The translations under genes and the position numbers were made by a program. The notes under the pieces were generated by a model. It ran no database searches. It was not told the origin of the DNA and saw nothing but the letters and a program-made list of their open reading frames with translations. Shown here in pieces: positions 5,841 through 15,641 of a stretch of DNA of 16,878 bases. Source of the DNA: Actinomycetes bacterium (GTDB lineage Bacteria > Actinomycetota > Actinomycetes > Actinomycetales > Cellulomonadaceae); the NCBI GenBank assembly GCA_021793115.1, contig JAJYTJ010000080.1:1-16878 (forward strand), given 5' to 3'. Each line of letters starts with the position of its first letter. The stretch's first letter is position 1.

Positions 5841-5900
5841 GTTCGTTGGTGCGCCAGTAGGTGCGGGTCGGCTCGATGGTTCTCCAACGTGCGCCTTCCA

Positions 5901-5969
5901 GCACTCCAAACTGTAGCCTGGCAGCGCTCCAAACTGTAGCCCCGCACCGCTCCAAAGTGTAGTCTCGTG
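5901..5969 (+). repeat. Three 23-bp tandem repeats in front of the ATPase gene
   Basis: The core CTCCAAACTGTAG occurs at 5904-5916 and 5927-5939, and as CTCCAAAGTGTAG at 5950-5962, with an exact 23-base period. The first two cores are identical and each is followed by CC; the third differs by one base and continues into TAGTCT, a possible -10 element at 5960-5965. The array lies 34 bases before the ATG of the ATPase. Head-to-tail sites at about two helical turns suggest binding of an oligomeric regulator, perhaps autoregulation. No similar repeat is seen elsewhere in the window. Confidence 0.8.
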
Positions 5970-6002
5970 CTTGTGGCCAGCCGTGATGCGCTCGGAGGGA
6001 TC

Positions 6003-7262
6003 ATGAGCAGCGGGTACCGATCCCGTGTCATTGACGGCGTGCTCGAGGAACGCTTGCAGTCGGCCGGGGCCGTCGTGATCCAAGGGCCGAAGGCCTGCGG
6101 CAAGACATCCACCGCCAGCCGGATCGCCAAGAGCGAGACCCGACTGGACATCGATCGGAGTGCGCGTGACGCACTCCGTATCGACCCGTCCCTTGTCCTC
6201 AGCGGCGCGGCGCCGCAACTCGTGGACGAGTGGCAACTCGAGGCAGACACGGTCTGGAACCACGTCCGCTATGCGGTGGACCAGCGGGGCCTTCCGGGGC
6301 AGTTCATCCTCACCGGCTCAGCGACGCCCGATGACGATGCGCGCCGACACGCCGGCGCTGGCAGGTTCGCTCGCTTGACGATGCGACCGATGAGCCTGTT
6401 CGAGAGCGGAGAGTCAACCGGGGCGATGTCGCTGGCCGCCCTCTTGGCTGGGGAGCGTCCGACCGCCCCCGCGACACCGCTGACCGTCCCCGACGTTGCC
6501 GCACTGGTCGTCCGCGGTGGTTGGCCCCTCAACCTCCAGATGTCGGTCGAGGCGGCCGCCCGAGCCAACGTTGACTACCTGCGCAACATCGCCGAAGTCG
6601 ACCTGCCCCGGATTGAGCAGACACAGCGGGACCCACTGCGCACCAGCCGCTTCATCCAGGCGCTGGCGCGCAACACCGCCATGGAACAGAAGGTGGCCCG
6701 TCTGGCATCGGAAGCAGGCGTCGACGACGGACCTCTGGCCCGGAGCACCGTCTACGACTACGTCGCAGCCCTGCAGCGCCTCATGATCCTCGACGAGGTC
6801 ACGCCGTGGGCGACACACCTTCGCTCTCGCGCGACCCTGCGGACGGCGTCCAGGACTCACTTGGCAGATCCGTCGTTGGCGGCCGCCGCGCTCGGTGCCG
6901 GCCCTGAGCGGCTGCTGTCTGACCTGAACACGTTCGGGCTGCTCTTCGAGTCGCTCGTGGTGCGCGACGCCCGCGTGTACGCCGACCCGCTAGACGCGAT
7001 GGTGCACCACTACCGCGACAGCCTGAACCTCGAAGTCGACGTCGTCGTCCAGTGCCGCAACGGCCGCTGGGGGGCTTTCGAGGTCAAGCTCGGCACCGGA
7101 CAGATCGAGGAAGCCGCCAAGAACCTCCTCACGTTCGCCGACCGCGTCGACACCGACAAGGTCGGCCCACCGGCTGTCTTGGCCGTCATCACCGCAACCG
7201 GCTACGGCTACACCCGCCCAGACGGCGTCGTCGTCGTCCCCATCGGTTCATTCGGACCCTGA
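6003..7262 (+). CDS. AAA ATPase with DUF4143 C-terminal domain
   Basis: A 419-residue protein of the AAA_14-DUF4143 family. Walker A is GPKACGKT at residues 28-35, Walker B is LVDEWQ with Asp75-Glu76, and the sensor-like ILTGSATP follows near 100. FARLTMRPMSLFESG marks the end of the ATPase part. The C-terminal DUF4143 domain has Asp346 (LEVDVVV) and Glu360-x-Lys362 (FEVKLG), the pattern of PD-(D/E)xK nuclease-like folds. The ATG at 6003 is chosen because GGAGGG lies at 5994-5999 and the family text starts there; a GTG at 5967 is possible but overlaps the repeats. Family members are widespread in accessory regions and their cellular role is not established. The gene looks less G/C-biased at third codon positions than its neighbours, suggesting transfer. 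It stands alone, preceded by the 23-bp repeats. Confidence 0.88.
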   Translation: MSSGYRSRVIDGVLEERLQSAGAVVIQGPKACGKTSTASRIAKSETRLDIDRSARDALRIDPSLVLSGAAPQLVDEWQLEADTVWNHVRYAVDQRGLPGQFILTGSATPDDDARRHAGAGRFARLTMRPMSLFESGESTGAMSLAALLAGERPTAPATPLTVPDVAALVVRGGWPLNLQMSVEAAARANVDYLRNIAEVDLPRIEQTQRDPLRTSRFIQALARNTAMEQKVARLASEAGVDDGPLARSTVYDYVAALQRLMILDEVTPWATHLRSRATLRTASRTHLADPSLAAAALGAGPERLLSDLNTFGLLFESLVVRDARVYADPLDAMVHHYRDSLNLEVDVVVQCRNGRWGAFEVKLGTGQIEEAAKNLLTFADRVDTDKVGPPAVLAVITATGYGYTRPDGVVVVPIGSFGP

Positions 7263-11984: not shown

Positions 11985-12090
11985 GGCACCCCCCCCGCAC
12001 CCCACGGCACCTCGGCACCTCGGCACCCCCCCGCACCCCGGCACCTCGGCACCCCCCCGCACCCCGGCACCCCTCCCCGCACCCCGGCGC
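11985..12090. repeat. C-rich tandem repeat, G-quadruplex-prone on the minus strand
   Basis: Two exact 26-base copies lie head to tail at 12014-12039 and 12040-12065. Each is built of GGCACCTC followed by GGCACCCCCCCGCACCCC. Partial copies of the second module flank them (from 11985 and from 12066). The minus strand carries repeated runs of four to eight G. The tract ends exactly where the 68-bp palindrome begins. Confidence 0.8.
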
Positions 12091-12158
12091 CGAGCACGGC
12101 AGTTCACGTCGAACACGGCAGTCCTGCCTGCCGTGTTCGACCGGAACTGCCGTGCTCG
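12091..12158. repeat. 68-bp nested palindrome, copy A
   Basis: The outer arms CGAGCACGGCAGTTC (12091-12105) and GAACTGCCGTGCTCG (12144-12158) pair perfectly over 15 bases. The inner arms CGAACACGGCAG (12110-12121) and CTGCCGTGTTCG (12128-12139) pair perfectly over 12. Spacers are four bases (ACGT, ACCG) and the loop is TCCTGC. It lies between the convergent ends of the VOC gene and trmB, 13 bases from the trmB stop, where it could end transcription both ways. It is one of three copies in the window. Confidence 0.92.
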
Positions 12159-12171
12159 CGGGAGTGAGCTG

Positions 12172-12900
12172 TCACCGGACCCGGCGGAACACCAGGTCAC
12201 GGGCCGGCCGGCCCTCGGCGAGCGCCTTCCGCTCGAACGCCGTCATCGGGCGGCCGGCGGCCGCCTCGGGCGCCGGCTCCAGGCCGGGGTCCGACGAGAG
12301 CACCTCGGCCATCTGGCCGGCGTAGTCCGGCCAGTCGGTCGCCGTGCGGAGCACGCCGCCGACGACGAGCCGGCTGCGCAGCAGCGCGACGTGGGCCGGC
12401 TGCACCAGACGGCGCTTGTGGTGGCGGGCCTTCGGCCAGGGGTCGGGGAAGAACGCCCGGACCTCCGCGAGCGTGCCCGGCGCAAGGGCGTGCCGCACCA
12501 GGTCGAGCGCGTCGCCGTGGCCCACGCGAACGGTGCGGATCCCGGCCTCGTCGAGCAGCTTGAGCAGGTTGGCGACCCCCGGCAGGTGGGCCTCGACGGC
12601 CAGCACGTCGCACCCCGGGTCGGCTGCCGCCATGGCTACGGTGGCCTCGCCCATGCCGGGGCCGATCTCGAGCACGAGCGGCGCCACCCGACCGAACATC
12701 GCGGCCGCGTCGAGCAGGCCGTCGCGCGTGCGGGGGAAGGGTGCCGTCTCGTCGTGCACCGAGAACCCGAGCTCCGGGAAGAGGCGGCGCAGCGCCTCCT
12801 GCCGCACCGGCCCGAGCCCGGCGCCCCGCGGGTGGAACGTCCGCAGCGGCTCGTGCGGCGCGGCCGCGGGGTGACGAAACCGTCCGGCCGTGGGATCCAC
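12172..12900 (-). CDS. trmB: tRNA (guanine-N7-)-methyltransferase TrmB
   Basis: A 242-residue S-adenosylmethionine-dependent enzyme that makes m7G46 in the variable loop of tRNAs. The AdoMet motif is EIGPGMG at residues 78-84, and VEAHLPGV follows near 102. The signature FFPDPWPKARHHKRR is at 150-164 and TDWPDY at 188-193. The end TAFERKALAEGRPARDLVFRR is typical. The N-terminal RTFHPRGAGLGP also fits actinobacterial TrmB. The GTG at 12898-12900 is chosen because a TAGGCT -10 element lies seven bases upstream, consistent with a leaderless message. The gene lies between palindrome copies A (downstream) and B (upstream). Confidence 0.93.
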   Translation of the reverse strand: MDPTAGRFRHPAAAPHEPLRTFHPRGAGLGPVRQEALRRLFPELGFSVHDETAPFPRTRDGLLDAAAMFGRVAPLVLEIGPGMGEATVAMAAADPGCDVLAVEAHLPGVANLLKLLDEAGIRTVRVGHGDALDLVRHALAPGTLAEVRAFFPDPWPKARHHKRRLVQPAHVALLRSRLVVGGVLRTATDWPDYAGQMAEVLSSDPGLEPAPEAAAGRPMTAFERKALAEGRPARDLVFRRVR

Positions 12901-12913
12901 AGCCGTCAGCCTA
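12901..12913 (-). promoter_or_regulatory. Leaderless-type promoter -10 (TAGGCT) of trmB
   Basis: On the minus strand TAGGCT (12913-12908) is followed by seven bases and the GTG start. The same hexamer and spacing occur before the DUF1349 gene. Confidence 0.5.
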
Positions 12914-12963
12914 CGAACCCTCGTCGGCCTCGCAGATCCATCACGTCGCCGCGCCCCCGTCGT

Positions 12964-13031
12964 CGAACGCGGCAGTTCGGTCCGAACACGGCAGGCCGGA
13001 CTGCCGTGTTCGACATGAACTGCCGTGCTCG
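12964..13031. repeat. 68-bp nested palindrome, copy B
   Basis: The plan is the same as copy A: outer arms 12964-12978 (CGAACGCGGCAGTTC) and 13017-13031 (GAACTGCCGTGCTCG), inner arms 12983-12994 and 13001-13012 identical to copy A. Spacers are GGTC and ACAT, loop GCCGGA. The outer arms have two non-Watson-Crick positions. It lies between the histidine phosphatase stop (41 bases away) and the trmB promoter, both genes being on the minus strand. Confidence 0.92.
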
Positions 13032-13039
13032 GTGAAGCA

Positions 13040-13067
13040 GGGGAGAGGGAAGGAGGGGACGAGAGGG
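13040..13067 (+). other. G-run tract, quadruplex candidate beside copy B
   Basis: Four runs of three or four G (13040-13043, 13047-13049, 13055-13058, 13065-13067) are separated by three to six bases. The tract fills the space between palindrome copy B and the histidine phosphatase stop codon at 13072. Confidence 0.5.
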
Positions 13068-13071
13068 CGTC

Positions 13072-13722
13072 TCAGGCGCCGACCGGCTCCGCCGAGGGGA
13101 CCGGGCGGGCCGCCAGCGCACCGTGCCCGGCAACGTCGACGCCCACCGCGAGCAGCCGGGCCGAGCCGTCGGGCTCGAGCGCGACCGTGGAGACCGAGGC
13201 GTTGGGCAGCGCCACGAGGCCCGCCGGGTCGAGCGTGGCCAGCCACGCGCCCAGCGCCAGGCCGTGCCCGACGACGAGCACCTGGCCCGCGGGGTGGCGC
13301 TCGGCGATCGTCGTGAACGCCCGCCGCACGCGGGTCATGAAGTCGGCGGCGTGCTCGCCGCGCGGCAGGCCCGGGTACCGGCCGGCGAGGATCTCGGGGA
13401 CGATCTCGCGCCACGGCGCGATCTCCTCGAGCTCCCGCTCGGGCCGGCGCTCGAACGTGCCGAAGTCGTACTCCCGCAGGTCGGGGTCGGTGCGAAGCCG
13501 CACCGTCGGGTGGTGCCGCAGCAGCTCGACGGCCGTGGTCACCGCGCGCCCGGAGGGCGAGGAGTAGGCCGCCTCGAAGGGGACGTCCGCCAGGTGCCGC
13601 GCGGTGGCGCGCACCCCGTCGCGGCCGGGCCGCGTCAGGGGCGAGTCGCAGCTGCCCTGCAGCAGCTGGCGCTGGTTGAAGTGGGTCTGCCCGTGTCGCA
13701 CGAGCGTGAGCGTGAGGGTCAT
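13072..13722 (-). CDS. Histidine phosphatase / phosphoglycerate mutase-like protein
   Basis: A 216-residue member of histidine phosphatase branch 1. The phosphohistidine motif LVRHGQT puts Arg9-His10 in the pocket, with Arg59 (SSPSGRA), Glu84 (LREYDFG) as likely proton donor and His153 (VVGHG) completing it. The ATG at 13722 gives the family start MTLTLTLVRHGQT; the frame upstream to 13767 adds no family sequence. An AAGGA lies about ten bases upstream of this ATG. Members include cofactor-dependent phosphoglycerate mutases and many broad-specificity phosphatases; the short length and lack of the mutase insert favour a phosphatase. The gene may be read from the upstream DUF1349 gene or from its own promoter. 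Confidence 0.88.
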   Translation of the reverse strand: MTLTLTLVRHGQTHFNQRQLLQGSCDSPLTRPGRDGVRATARHLADVPFEAAYSSPSGRAVTTAVELLRHHPTVRLRTDPDLREYDFGTFERRPERELEEIAPWREIVPEILAGRYPGLPRGEHAADFMTRVRRAFTTIAERHPAGQVLVVGHGLALGAWLATLDPAGLVALPNASVSTVALEPDGSARLLAVGVDVAGHGALAARPVPSAEPVGA

Positions 13723-13754
13723 CGATGCCCGTCCTTCGTCGTTGTGTCCCCGCC

Positions 13755-13779
13755 ACCGTAACCCCACCGGGGTGACGGT
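13755..13779. promoter_or_regulatory. 11-bp inverted repeat (one mismatch) upstream of the histidine phosphatase
   Basis: ACCGTAACCCC (13755-13765) and GGGGTGACGGT (13769-13779) pair with one mismatch around ACC. On the minus strand the proximal arm contains TACGGT, a possible -10 element. The repeat may be an operator or a terminator for the DUF1349 gene that ends at 13823. Confidence 0.4.
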
Positions 13780-13822
13780 CCGATGTCGTCTCGGTGAGCG
13801 TCCGGCGAACGGTCGGGCGGCG

Positions 13823-14410
13823 TCAGTGCAGCGCGGCGTCCGCGGCCGTCGTCCGCCAGCCCAGGAAGCGCACGACGAGCCCGGCGCGCGACGGGGCGCA
13901 GCAGTAGGGGCCGGCCTCCAGCGGCGCGTCGACCTCGAAGGGCGTGACCCGCACGAGCCGCCACGGCTCGCCCTCGGCGTGGGCGCGCACCACGAGCGCG
14001 TCGCCGAACCGGCTCGCCCGGACGGTGACGACGCGCCCTGCCCACTCCGAGACCGGCGCGAGCGACCAGTCCGACGAGCCGCGCGTCACGACCGCGCCCA
14101 CCTGCGCGACGCCGTCGGAGACCTCGACCCCGGCCTTGACCCACGCCTCCGCTGACGCCCGCACCAGCAGGCCGGCCTGGTCGAACAGCTGGTCGTACGC
14201 GACGGCGACGTCCACCTCCACGGCGGTGCCGGCCGGCAGCGGGGCGAGCAGCGCGTGCTCCGAGTCGTGGACGAAGCCGTACGCCGTGTGGCGCCACGCG
14301 TCCGAGCCCTCGACCGCCTCGACGAGCAGGGCCTCGCCGTCCTCGCGGGCGGACACCGGCGGGTGGGTCCAGTGCCCGGCGGACCAGGGGACGCGGACCT
14401 CGGCGCTCAT
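13823..14410 (-). CDS. DUF1349 (concanavalin A-like fold) protein
   Basis: A 195-residue protein resembling the DUF1349 family of beta-sandwich, lectin-like domains. Seen are [23 protein letters not shown], cited here by its parts [12 protein letters not shown] and VHDSEHALL, then [28 protein letters not shown] (core: [13 protein letters not shown]) and VTRGSSDWS. The end reads [15 protein letters not shown], close to the usual G-x-x-x-x-S-P-x-x-x-G-x-x-x-x-F pattern. There is no signal peptide. The ATG at 14410 is preceded by TAGGCT and seven bases, suggesting a leaderless message. The hydrolase gene lies 40 bases upstream on the same strand. The function is unknown; sugar or glycan binding is a fold-based guess. 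Confidence 0.75.
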
Positions 14411-14423
14411 GGCGCGGAGCCTA
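14411..14423 (-). promoter_or_regulatory. Leaderless-type promoter -10 (TAGGCT) of the DUF1349 gene
   Basis: On the minus strand TAGGCT (14423-14418) is followed by seven bases and the ATG at 14410. No ribosome binding site is visible. Confidence 0.5.
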
Positions 14424-14450
14424 GCCACGGCGCCCGCGCGATGCGCGTCG

Positions 14451-15404
14451 TCAGGCGGGCAGCCGTCCGTCGAGCCAGTCCAGGACGGTGCGCAGGTAGC
14501 GGGTACGGGCGGGCTCGGGGGACAGGCACAGGTCGTGCGCGCCCGGCTGCTGCACCAGCGTGACGTCGTCGCCGAGGAGCGGGGCACGGGCCACCATGTC
14601 GCGCACGTCGAGGACGGCGTCCGTGGTGAGGATCTCGTCGTGCGGGCGGTCCCCGGGGCCGGTGGCCTCGGACGTGACGACGAGCACCGGCGCCTCGACG
14701 TGCAGGCCGCGCGCGACGCGGCGGTGACCGGCACGGATGGAGCGCACCCAGCCGGCCCGCACCGGGAACCCGGACAGCGGCTTCCACGCAAGGTCGTAGT
14801 CCCACTCGCCGCCGGTGCTGCGGTGCAGTGCCCGCCCGTACCAGGGGTCGAGCTCGCTCACCTTGAGGCGGGGGGCGACGCGGCCGACGATGTCGAGCGC
14901 GACGGTGAGCGGGCCGCGCTCGAACCAGGTGCCCCGCAGGTCGAGCCACGGGCTGTCGAGCACGAGCGCGTCGACGAGGCCGGGCCTCTCGGCGAGCCAC
15001 AGCGGCGCGACGAGGCCGCCCATGGAGTGGGCGTGCACCGCGACGATGTCGTGCTCGGCGCGCAGCAGGTCGACCGCGCGGTCGAGCTCGCGCGCGTAGA
15101 CCGCGATGTCGGTGGTGGCGTTGGGCTCGCGGCCCGGCCGGATGGAGCGGCCGTAGTCCCGCAGGTCGAGCGCGAAGAAGTCCCAGCCGTCGGCGGCGAA
15201 CGCGTCGCCGAGGTGGCGCTGGAAGAAGTAGTCCGCGAAGCCGTGCACGTGCAGCACGGCGCGGCGGGGACGGGCACCGGCGCGATCCCGGTGCACCAGC
15301 GTCGCGACGGCCGGCCCGTACCGGTCCGGCGGCAGCTCGAGCGTGAGCCGCGACCACCCAGGGCCGAGCACGTCGGGACCCCAGCCGGCAGACGTCGTCG
15401 TCAC
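14451..15404 (-). CDS. Alpha/beta hydrolase, serine aminopeptidase S33 / lysophospholipase-like
   Basis: A 317-residue alpha/beta hydrolase of the Hydrolase_4 type. The oxyanion-hole region is [13 protein letters not shown] (HGF at residues 54-56). The nucleophile is Ser127 in AHSMGG; the usual elbow GHSMGG has alanine in place of the first glycine here. The catalytic His is about residue 290 (GAHDLCLS), and an acidic residue after [10 protein letters not shown] is expected to complete the triad. The GTG at 15402-15404 is chosen because the protein then opens shortly before the first beta strand; the frame extends to 15503 but would run into palindrome copy C. A GAGGAT stands before it, readable as a poor -10 or as a ribosome binding site. 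Esterase or monoglyceride-lipase-like activity is likely; the substrate is unknown. Confidence 0.85.
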
Positions 15405-15433
15405 GGCCCGATCCTCGCACCACCCGGCCTCGG

Positions 15434-15475
15434 GCACCCCGTCTCGCCCCCCCTCCCGCACCTGCGCCCCCTTCC
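15434..15475. other. C-rich left flank of palindrome copy C
   Basis: C-runs including seven consecutive C and CCCTCCCGCACC lie just before copy C. The string CCCTCCC(C)GCACC is shared with the C-rich tract before copy A, so the flank may belong to the repeat element. Confidence 0.5.
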
Positions 15476-15496
15476 GAACTCGCGCCCCTCGTGCGT

Positions 15497-15564
15497 CGAG
15501 CACGGCAGTCCGGTCCGAACACGGCAGGTGGGACTGCCGTGTTCGACAGGAAGTGCCGTGTTCG
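15497..15564. repeat. 68-bp nested palindrome, copy C
   Basis: The plan is the same as copies A and B: outer arms 15497-15511 (CGAGCACGGCAGTCC) and 15550-15564 (GAAGTGCCGTGTTCG), inner arms 15516-15527 and 15534-15545 identical to the other copies. Spacers are GGTC and ACAG, loop GTGGGA. The outer arms have drifted (two mismatches and one G-T pair) while the inner pair is perfect. It lies between the divergent hydrolase and clpB genes, 45 bases before the clpB -35 element. Confidence 0.92.
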
Positions 15565-15608: not shown

Positions 15609-15641
15609 TTGATCTGGAAGTTGAGTGGAATAGACTCAACT
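15609..15641 (+). promoter_or_regulatory. clpB promoter with HAIR-like HspR operator
   Basis: TTGATC (15609-15614) and TAGACT (15631-15636) are -35 and -10 elements 16 bases apart. AGTTGAGT (15619-15626) and ACTCAACT (15634-15641) form a perfect 8-bp dyad with a seven-base spacer. This closely matches the known HspR-associated inverted repeat CTTGAGT-N7-ACTCAAG, and its right half overlaps the -10. HspR with DnaK would repress here and release on heat shock; the operator is seen, HspR itself is not in the window. Confidence 0.8.

Follow-up and report, generated by a model that had tools for sequence, protein, structure and literature searches.

Four-armed palindromic repeats of Cellulomonas-type genomes and a putative AbiEi-like/Vsr-like partner suggest a REP-like system

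The closest described systems are the REPtrons, in which repetitive extragenic palindromic (REP) sequences or REPINs accompany the gene of a REP-associated tyrosine transposase (RAYT). According to the relevant passages of PMC8049555, RAYTs duplicate REPINs and are single-copy genes inherited vertically; those of PMC3733652 describe REPs as carrying GTAG or CGTC tags. The question of why bacteria retain REP-type repeats is old and still open, and it is usually posed for RAYTs alone. Here, a 16,878-nucleotide contig of a Cellulomonadaceae bacterium (JAJYTJ010000080.1; the whole stretch is called the window) was analyzed, in which three 68-bp nested palindromes are found. These elements belong to a family of four-armed palindromes in Cellulomonas-type genomes, and elements of this family flank a solitary gene whose product is predicted to combine an AbiEi-like half and a Vsr/homing-endonuclease-like half. 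Sequence comparison suggests a repeat-plus-nuclease partnership, not ordinary hairpins. We consider it likely that this is a REP-like system on an unrelated nuclease, with motif-specific subfamilies, a cognate protein, spread of the repeat and exchange of cassettes.

All three window elements follow the plan 15-4-12-6-12-4-15 (arm, spacer, arm, loop, arm, spacer, arm), with two units forward and two inverted; four-armed palindromes of this kind have about 19 bp per unit. The elements and their arms are as follows.

12091..12158, minus strand (by loop): element copy 1, 13 bp past the trmB stop, in the convergent glyoxalase/trmB gap
12091..12105, plus strand: copy 1 outer left arm, 15 bases
12110..12121, plus strand: copy 1 inner left arm, CGAACACGGCAG
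12128..12139, minus strand: copy 1 inner right arm
12144..12158, minus strand: copy 1 outer right arm, 15 bases
12964..13031, plus strand: element copy 2, co-directional, 40 bp from the histidine-phosphatase stop (minus strand) and 63 bp from the predicted trmB start
12964..12978, plus strand: copy 2 outer left arm
12983..12994, plus strand: copy 2 inner left arm
13001..13012, minus strand: copy 2 inner right arm
13017..13031, minus strand: copy 2 outer right arm
15497..15564, plus strand: element copy 3, in the divergent hydrolase/clpB gap
15497..15511, plus strand: copy 3 outer left arm
15516..15527, plus strand: copy 3 inner left arm
15534..15545, minus strand: copy 3 inner right arm
15550..15564, minus strand: copy 3 outer right arm

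An earlier note on this DNA had given these positions, this plan and the convergent, co-directional and divergent settings, and all of them were confirmed. A detector that finds four-arm nested palindromes by plan and is blind to motif scored the three copies 46, 44 and 44. In 100 dinucleotide-Markov shuffles of the window, 79 matches scored at least 33 and none scored above 37; three extra matches in the window at 33-35 are chance-like. The inner arms are identical across the copies, as had been claimed, and pair at 12 of 12 bases in each, and the outer arms pair at 15/15, 13/15 and 12/15 in copies 1, 2 and 3. The description of all four arms as one motif, CGARCACGGCAG, holds for 10 of the 12 arms and fails for CGAACGCGGCAG at 12964 and CGAACACGGCAC at 15553-15564. 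Spacers and loops were said to vary freely, which is not the case. Copy 1 lies in reverse orientation; with all copies in one orientation, the three loops share the form GNNGGA (GCAGGA, GCCGGA, GTGGGA) and the right spacers the form ACRN. Copies 1 and 2 are 90% complementary across 69 nt. The sole match in an Rfam scan of the window was a tRNA, and the palindromes were unmatched.

The exact 12+12 core of the window elements had no match in a collection of 84,980 species and none in a viral collection. This exact-pattern search was too strict, because relatives differ in motif. A DNA similarity search of plasmids and phages gave nothing convincingly resembling the element. A covariance model built from seven copies matched at least 103 of 220 Cellulomonas-family genomes at E<=0.01 under stricter filters (G, L and C denote genomes, loci and contigs). 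At E<0.01, the places matched numbered 8 in G002 and 5 in G001, a partial genome; one gene-overlapping place was dropped from each. Weak or gene-overlapping model matches (L133, L137, L138) did not enter the counts. The best E-values of two other genomes in the same search were 0.035 and 0.064. The expectation of a REP-like repeat family with copies elsewhere was borne out. The four-arm plan is widespread with other motifs, while the window motif itself is rare (no exact core among the 84,980 species, 8 related places in G002).

The elements of 29 matched loci (27 long enough to print) share the plan with varied motifs. The arm motif differs by genome and shifts jointly in all four arms. It is CGAG-NN-CGGCAG in G097, TCA-NNN-CGGCAG in G143, CGAGCTCGGTGG in G073, CGATGTCGGTAG/CGAGATCGGCAG in G146, and CGAGGTCGTCAG plus a second set, CGAGTTCGGCAC, in G084. 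A survey with the motif-blind detector gave 24 matches at threshold, three of them the window's own and the lowest-scoring doubtful, versus none in one shuffle. Motifs unlike that of the window were among them, such as CGAGGTAGAGGT in Oerskovia enterophila (L040) and CGAGTTCGTGCG in Cellulomonas sp. URHD0024 (L036). Elements were also observed within ~175 bp of contig ends (G007 C259, C345 and C223; G143 C2; G146 C14). Because several sit there, draft assemblies may break at the hairpins, and hairpin counts may be too low.

G146 has a set of five copies, four of them near-identical and one slightly diverged (C9, C1, C7, C3; L219-L223), with CGTTTTAC/GTAAAA-like ends and a palindrome of ~80 bp. 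The near-identical copies suggest recent copying, and no target duplication was seen at them. Such copies, and the layout of two direct units per end, inverted around a short centre, would also be expected of ordinary miniature inverted-repeat transposable elements (MITEs) of a DDE-type transposon whose ends each carry two transposase-binding repeats. This explanation is highly improbable, as target duplication is not seen, the gene between element pairs looks Vsr-like and not DDE, and conserved motif bases stand beside free ones. The 12-6-12 core also brought XerC/D-type sites and integron attC sites into consideration, and both readings were set aside a priori.

The solitary gene between elements encodes, according to structure models, an AbiEi-like half and a Vsr/homing-endonuclease-like half, and a Vsr-type nuclease fold with conserved acidic residues is present in the model. 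A Pfam scan of four partner proteins gave AbiEi_4, DUF559, MTES_1575 and Lac_bphage_repr at low score, and one protein was without a match. Y1_Tnp had no match in these four proteins, and no RAYT search was made elsewhere in the genomes. A transposase flanked by the same arms had been proposed; a gene flanked by similar elements does exist, but its product is AbiEi-like/Vsr-like and not a RAYT.

The association between gene and element was measured on 56 loci, which remained from 61 high-scoring gene loci after five without full flanks were dropped. At detector threshold 35, an element lies within 600 bp of 47 of the 56 genes, and 28 have one on both sides. At thresholds 38, 40 and 42, the numbers with an element on any side and on both sides are 44/22, 39/17 and 27/10. 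When 900-bp stretches were placed at random in related loci, 104, 40, 33 and 21 of 1540 had an element at thresholds 35, 38, 40 and 42, and 1, 0, 0 and 0 had one on both sides. When the four discovery genes were removed, 43, 40, 36 and 24 of 52 genes had an element at these thresholds. Two of four genes from outside the first 220 genomes have elements (G428, G284), as do two truncated genes at G002 contig ends that stand outside the paralogue count. Only one of 17 low-scoring paralogues has a match, and this is a low-complexity repeat. An overly exact pattern for cognate dispersed copies matched G212 twice, in both cases away from the gene retrieved there. Beside the nuclease-like gene of G001, a segment from the upstream element and the adjoining flank occurs in tandem (L136 5136-5240).

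The two sides of a gene carry related motifs. In 20 two-sided genes, the arm sets differ by 1.79 of 12 bases, versus 5.19 for permuted partners (0/10000), and the own partner side is the closest in 14 of the 20. Protein similarity also follows motif similarity in 47 genes (Mantel r 0.268, 0/2000; 0.194, 20/5000, for an earlier 30 genes), in correlations that include shared descent. Every part of the protein correlates with the motif, the first 45 residues least.

Placement relative to genes was determined with gene calls from a simple codon model, and five duplicate places were kept (L143=L219, L154=L204, L157=L212, L151=L050, L142=L026). The 106 elements comprise 47 co-directional, 33 convergent, 16 divergent, 7 overlapping a predicted gene and 3 unclassed. 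The background gaps of at least 90 bp comprise 196 co-directional, 39 convergent and 137 divergent. Convergent gaps are therefore favoured (33/96 elements versus 39/372 background gaps). The median distance is 18.5 bp to the nearest stop codon (82 elements) and 75.5 bp to the nearest start (64 elements). RNA folding of the window elements with 15-base flanks gave -58 to -74 kcal/mol. Stable hairpins past stop codons and enriched in convergent gaps would be expected of bidirectional transcription terminators that share sequence within a genome by happenstance. This explanation is unlikely. The divergent share is 16/96, and the four motif copies, the genome-specific motif and the nuclease-like gene between copies are all needless for termination. 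No T run is found 3' of the window hairpins, whereas an intrinsic terminator is a G+C hairpin with a T run behind it; the five G146 copies examined have T's 5' of the hairpin and A's 3', the reverse of that order. The view that the elements are not simply terminators is upheld, and termination as an acquired use is compatible with the REP-like reading.

A 5' element is found in 36 of the 56 genes, 62-431 bp upstream of the start of the hidden Markov model match, and a 3' element in 39, of which 30 lie within 60 bp of the match end. The upstream position fits operator arrays, in which the protein is only an AbiEi-like regulator that acts on its own gene through the upstream element, the dispersed copies are its regulon, and no nuclease-driven spread takes place. 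The bases conserved in all four arms resemble protein contacts, and 8 of the 12 classed G143 copies lie in divergent gaps. Because the G143 copies are mostly divergent, regulation is also compatible with the data. Operator arrays do not account for the 3' elements, the short distance to stop codons, the preference for convergent gaps, or the families without a resident gene. They are a serious rival, although a doubtful one, and their binding part agrees with the REP-like reading.

The motif bases hardly vary across the four arms in the 21 copies of G097 and the 14 of G143, and 2-3 bases per arm take many values. The invariant bases would be explained by sequence recognition. Left/right pairing exceeds all 500 shuffles in G097 (86.9 vs 82.7%) and G143 (90.1 vs 85.9%), which relatedness alone can also produce. 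At the free bases, agreement between opposite arms exceeds chance (G097: 1 and 31 of 2000 shuffles; G143: 33 and 1). In seven mixed copies, the covariation count is barely above shuffles; the signal emerges within a single genome. Base pairing may explain the left/right agreement, as may birth as a perfect palindrome followed by decay. In G097 the adjacent inner right and outer right arms also agree at the free bases (0/2000), which a simple hairpin does not predict and which follows from neither sequence recognition nor pairing or palindrome birth.

The partner genes occupy shared sites across species. An example is the prs-rplY site in G001, which has matching flanks in G002; at this G001 site, the one for which genes beyond the elements were named, these are glmU, prs, rplY and pth. 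Same-site pairs with one flank of at least 84% identity number 27, and nine of them have both flanks at 88% or above. In these nine, the flanks are 88-98% identical, the nucleases share 54-79% amino-acid identity, and the motifs often differ. In L316/L318, for instance, the flanks are 94% and 98% identical, the nucleases 56%, and the arms are CGAAGTAGAACG versus CGAGATAGAGGG. Eight pairs were scanned along their length. To the left of the cassette identity is 0.82-0.96, and inside it 0.44-0.61. On the right, six of the eight are back at 0.85-0.98 no more than 100-150 bp beyond the element edge; L302/L312 (0.57) and L254/L269 (single element) are the misfits. Whole-cassette replacement would explain the sharp divergence better than mutation, with very fast local evolution as the alternative. 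A search for an empty site of the whole cassette covered 154 flank pairs, counting same-genome and mirrored ones, and in 153 the flanks lie more than 1.2 kb apart. The exception is L306 vs L176 (flanks 77/80%), in which G049 has the cassette and G097 a single element of another motif.

The gaps of the window were compared with those of relatives. The best non-self match of the hydrolase is 93% identical, and named Cellulomonas are at ~57-67%, among the 120 matches listed. Of the genomes found, Cellulomonas sp. 73-92 (L002, G002) and the metagenome-assembled genome DX1.bin3 (L001, G001) are the closest, with ortholog identities of 78-97%. L002 has the gene order of the window; in L001, clpB is further away and DUF1349 was not found there. 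Between protein-match ends, the glyoxalase/trmB gap is ~12 bp in L002, ~27 bp in L001 and ~208 bp in the window, and the relatives have no element in it. The trmB/phosphatase gap of L002 has only CGAGCACGGCTGCTCG, possibly a remnant, at the matching position. The clpB gap is ~194 bp without an element in L002 and ~2.5 kb in L001. Because these gaps differ, the window copies are not fixed features; insertion and deletion fit alike.

Similar variation is seen in other genomes. Seven of 33 close orthologous comparisons are shorter by at least 50 bp, as short or empty sites. In G103, G097, G044 and G073 an element occupies the same convergent gap, and the four elements have between them three different motifs. 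Cellulomonas humilata L026 is identical to L142 of G054. At ~2863-2908 of the corresponding locus in Cellulomonas sp. Root930 (L016), a two-arm hairpin, CGAGAACGGCA...TGCCGTTCTCG, stands against the four arms of C. humilata; it may be either ancestral or reduced. L016 is without the neighbouring C. humilata element, whose motif is that of the C. humilata nuclease-like gene. The proposed comparison of occupied and empty sites thus yielded presence and absence at orthologous sites, but no clean insertion with target duplication.

The dispersed copies match the resident gene in G143, G146 and G084, and one copy does so in G054. This sample is biased, because the genomes were chosen with the window's model. 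The gene nearest to the window motif is L269 of G001, with some arms ..GCTCGGCAG, one base off ..GCACGGCAG. On the genomes examined, the window motif falls with the orphan motifs, for which no matching resident gene was found.

In the REP-like reading, the window copies would be dispersed, non-autonomous members of the four-armed family, each subfamily having its own arm motif. The motif would be recognized by a cognate solitary AbiEi-like/Vsr-like protein encoded between two copies. This protein would bind the four half-sites, and its nuclease would act there, probably on an extruded or single-stranded hairpin, and thereby maintain and spread the repeats. At fixed chromosomal sites, element-gene-element cassettes would be swapped as alleles. 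Copies would persist mostly past gene ends, where they are least harmful, and may be co-opted as hairpin terminators. We give about even chances to a stronger form, a second and unrelated invention of the REP-RAYT type. In it, fast-evolving AbiEi-winged-helix/Vsr-like specificities have their own palindrome populations, and incompatible cassette 'alleles' replace each other at fixed sites like warring homing or restriction specificities.

Several observations weigh against the REP-like reading. All partner Pfam matches fall under the curated cut-offs, and the fold evidence is moderate: in Foldseek only AbiEi reaches E<=0.001, with Vsr at 0.24 and I-Bth0305I at 1.3. No element accompanies 9 of the 56 genes when the detector threshold is 35, or 17 when it is 40. 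Among the 20 two-sided genes, the two arm sets of L267 do not agree with each other, and shared descent enters the protein-motif correlations. The divergent G143 copies belong here as well. No resident-gene match was found in G002, G097, G073 and G103, whose genes carry other motifs (G097 has only a weak homologue). A gene with the window motif was not found in a genome set that did not include the window's own; in G002, which has 8 related places, the resident genes carry other motifs. The element is simply retained in 19 of the 33 close orthologous comparisons and is often inherited, and no clean target duplication is seen at occupied and empty sites, where the differences include extra bases. 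Finally, 5 of the 27 same-site pairs (L265/L271, L244/L246, L253/L274, L264/L266, L256/L258) are alike in both nucleases (69-83%) and arms (1.1-2.5 mismatches), the pattern expected of gradual divergence.

Other features of the window were also recorded. Short C-rich tandem repeats at 11992-12077 occupy the gap ahead of copy 1 and are absent in L001 and L002. Copy 3 ends 55 bp upstream of an inverted repeat at 15620-15640, upstream of clpB (GTTGAGT-GGAATAG-ACTCAAC), which we take to resemble the HspR-associated inverted repeat (HAIR) operator of HspR. Three 23-nt tandem repeats (GCCTTCCAGCACTCCAAACTGTA-like) at 5893-5961 lie just ahead of an AAA_14/DUF4143 gene at 5967-7262.

The association of repeat and nuclease was not reported in the open-access literature searched, a search that did not extend to subscription papers and preprints. 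It would place a REP-like arrangement with an unrelated nuclease-like protein and provide many pairs of arm motif and protein that can be matched by sequence alone. If true, the DNA specificity of AbiEi-type domains becomes decodable, and a role is suggested for many proteins annotated as 'hypothetical', 'AbiEi antitoxin' or 'very-short-patch-repair endonuclease'. The divergence of the cassettes is sharp enough to suggest selection for altered specificity.

Among known systems, MITEs and bacterial interspersed mosaic elements (BIMEs) are likewise non-coding, interspersed inverted-repeat units. Unlike them, each arm here repeats one motif, target duplication is not seen, and no DDE transposase was found beside the elements examined. 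In the type IV toxin-antitoxin system AbiE, AbiEi is the antitoxin (structure 6y8q). The partner differs in its extra nuclease-like half, and no AbiEii toxin gene follows it directly where the 3' element is close; 30 of 39 3' elements start within 60 bp of the match end, which leaves no room for one. The likeness to Vsr and I-Bth0305I-type nucleases (3r3p, 1cw0; Pfam MTES_1575/DUF559) has Foldseek E-values that are not significant alone and Pfam scores below the curated cut-offs. Unlike these nucleases, the partner is flanked by intact copies of its presumed target. As far as the two cited papers describe them, REPtrons are the closest in arrangement. Both have short intergenic palindromes and a solitary gene flanked by repeats (here 28/56 on both sides, 47/56 on at least one), and dispersed copies match the flanks in some genomes (G143, G146, G084, G054), while other families have no resident gene. 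The elements as delimited lack the GTAG/CGTC tag described for REPs and end mostly in CGAG/CTCG or TCA/TGA, and they are built of four arms of one motif. The partner is AbiEi-like/Vsr-like and not a Y1/HUH transposase, and whereas RAYTs are described as vertically inherited and single-copy, here gene and motif are apparently exchanged together as a cassette.

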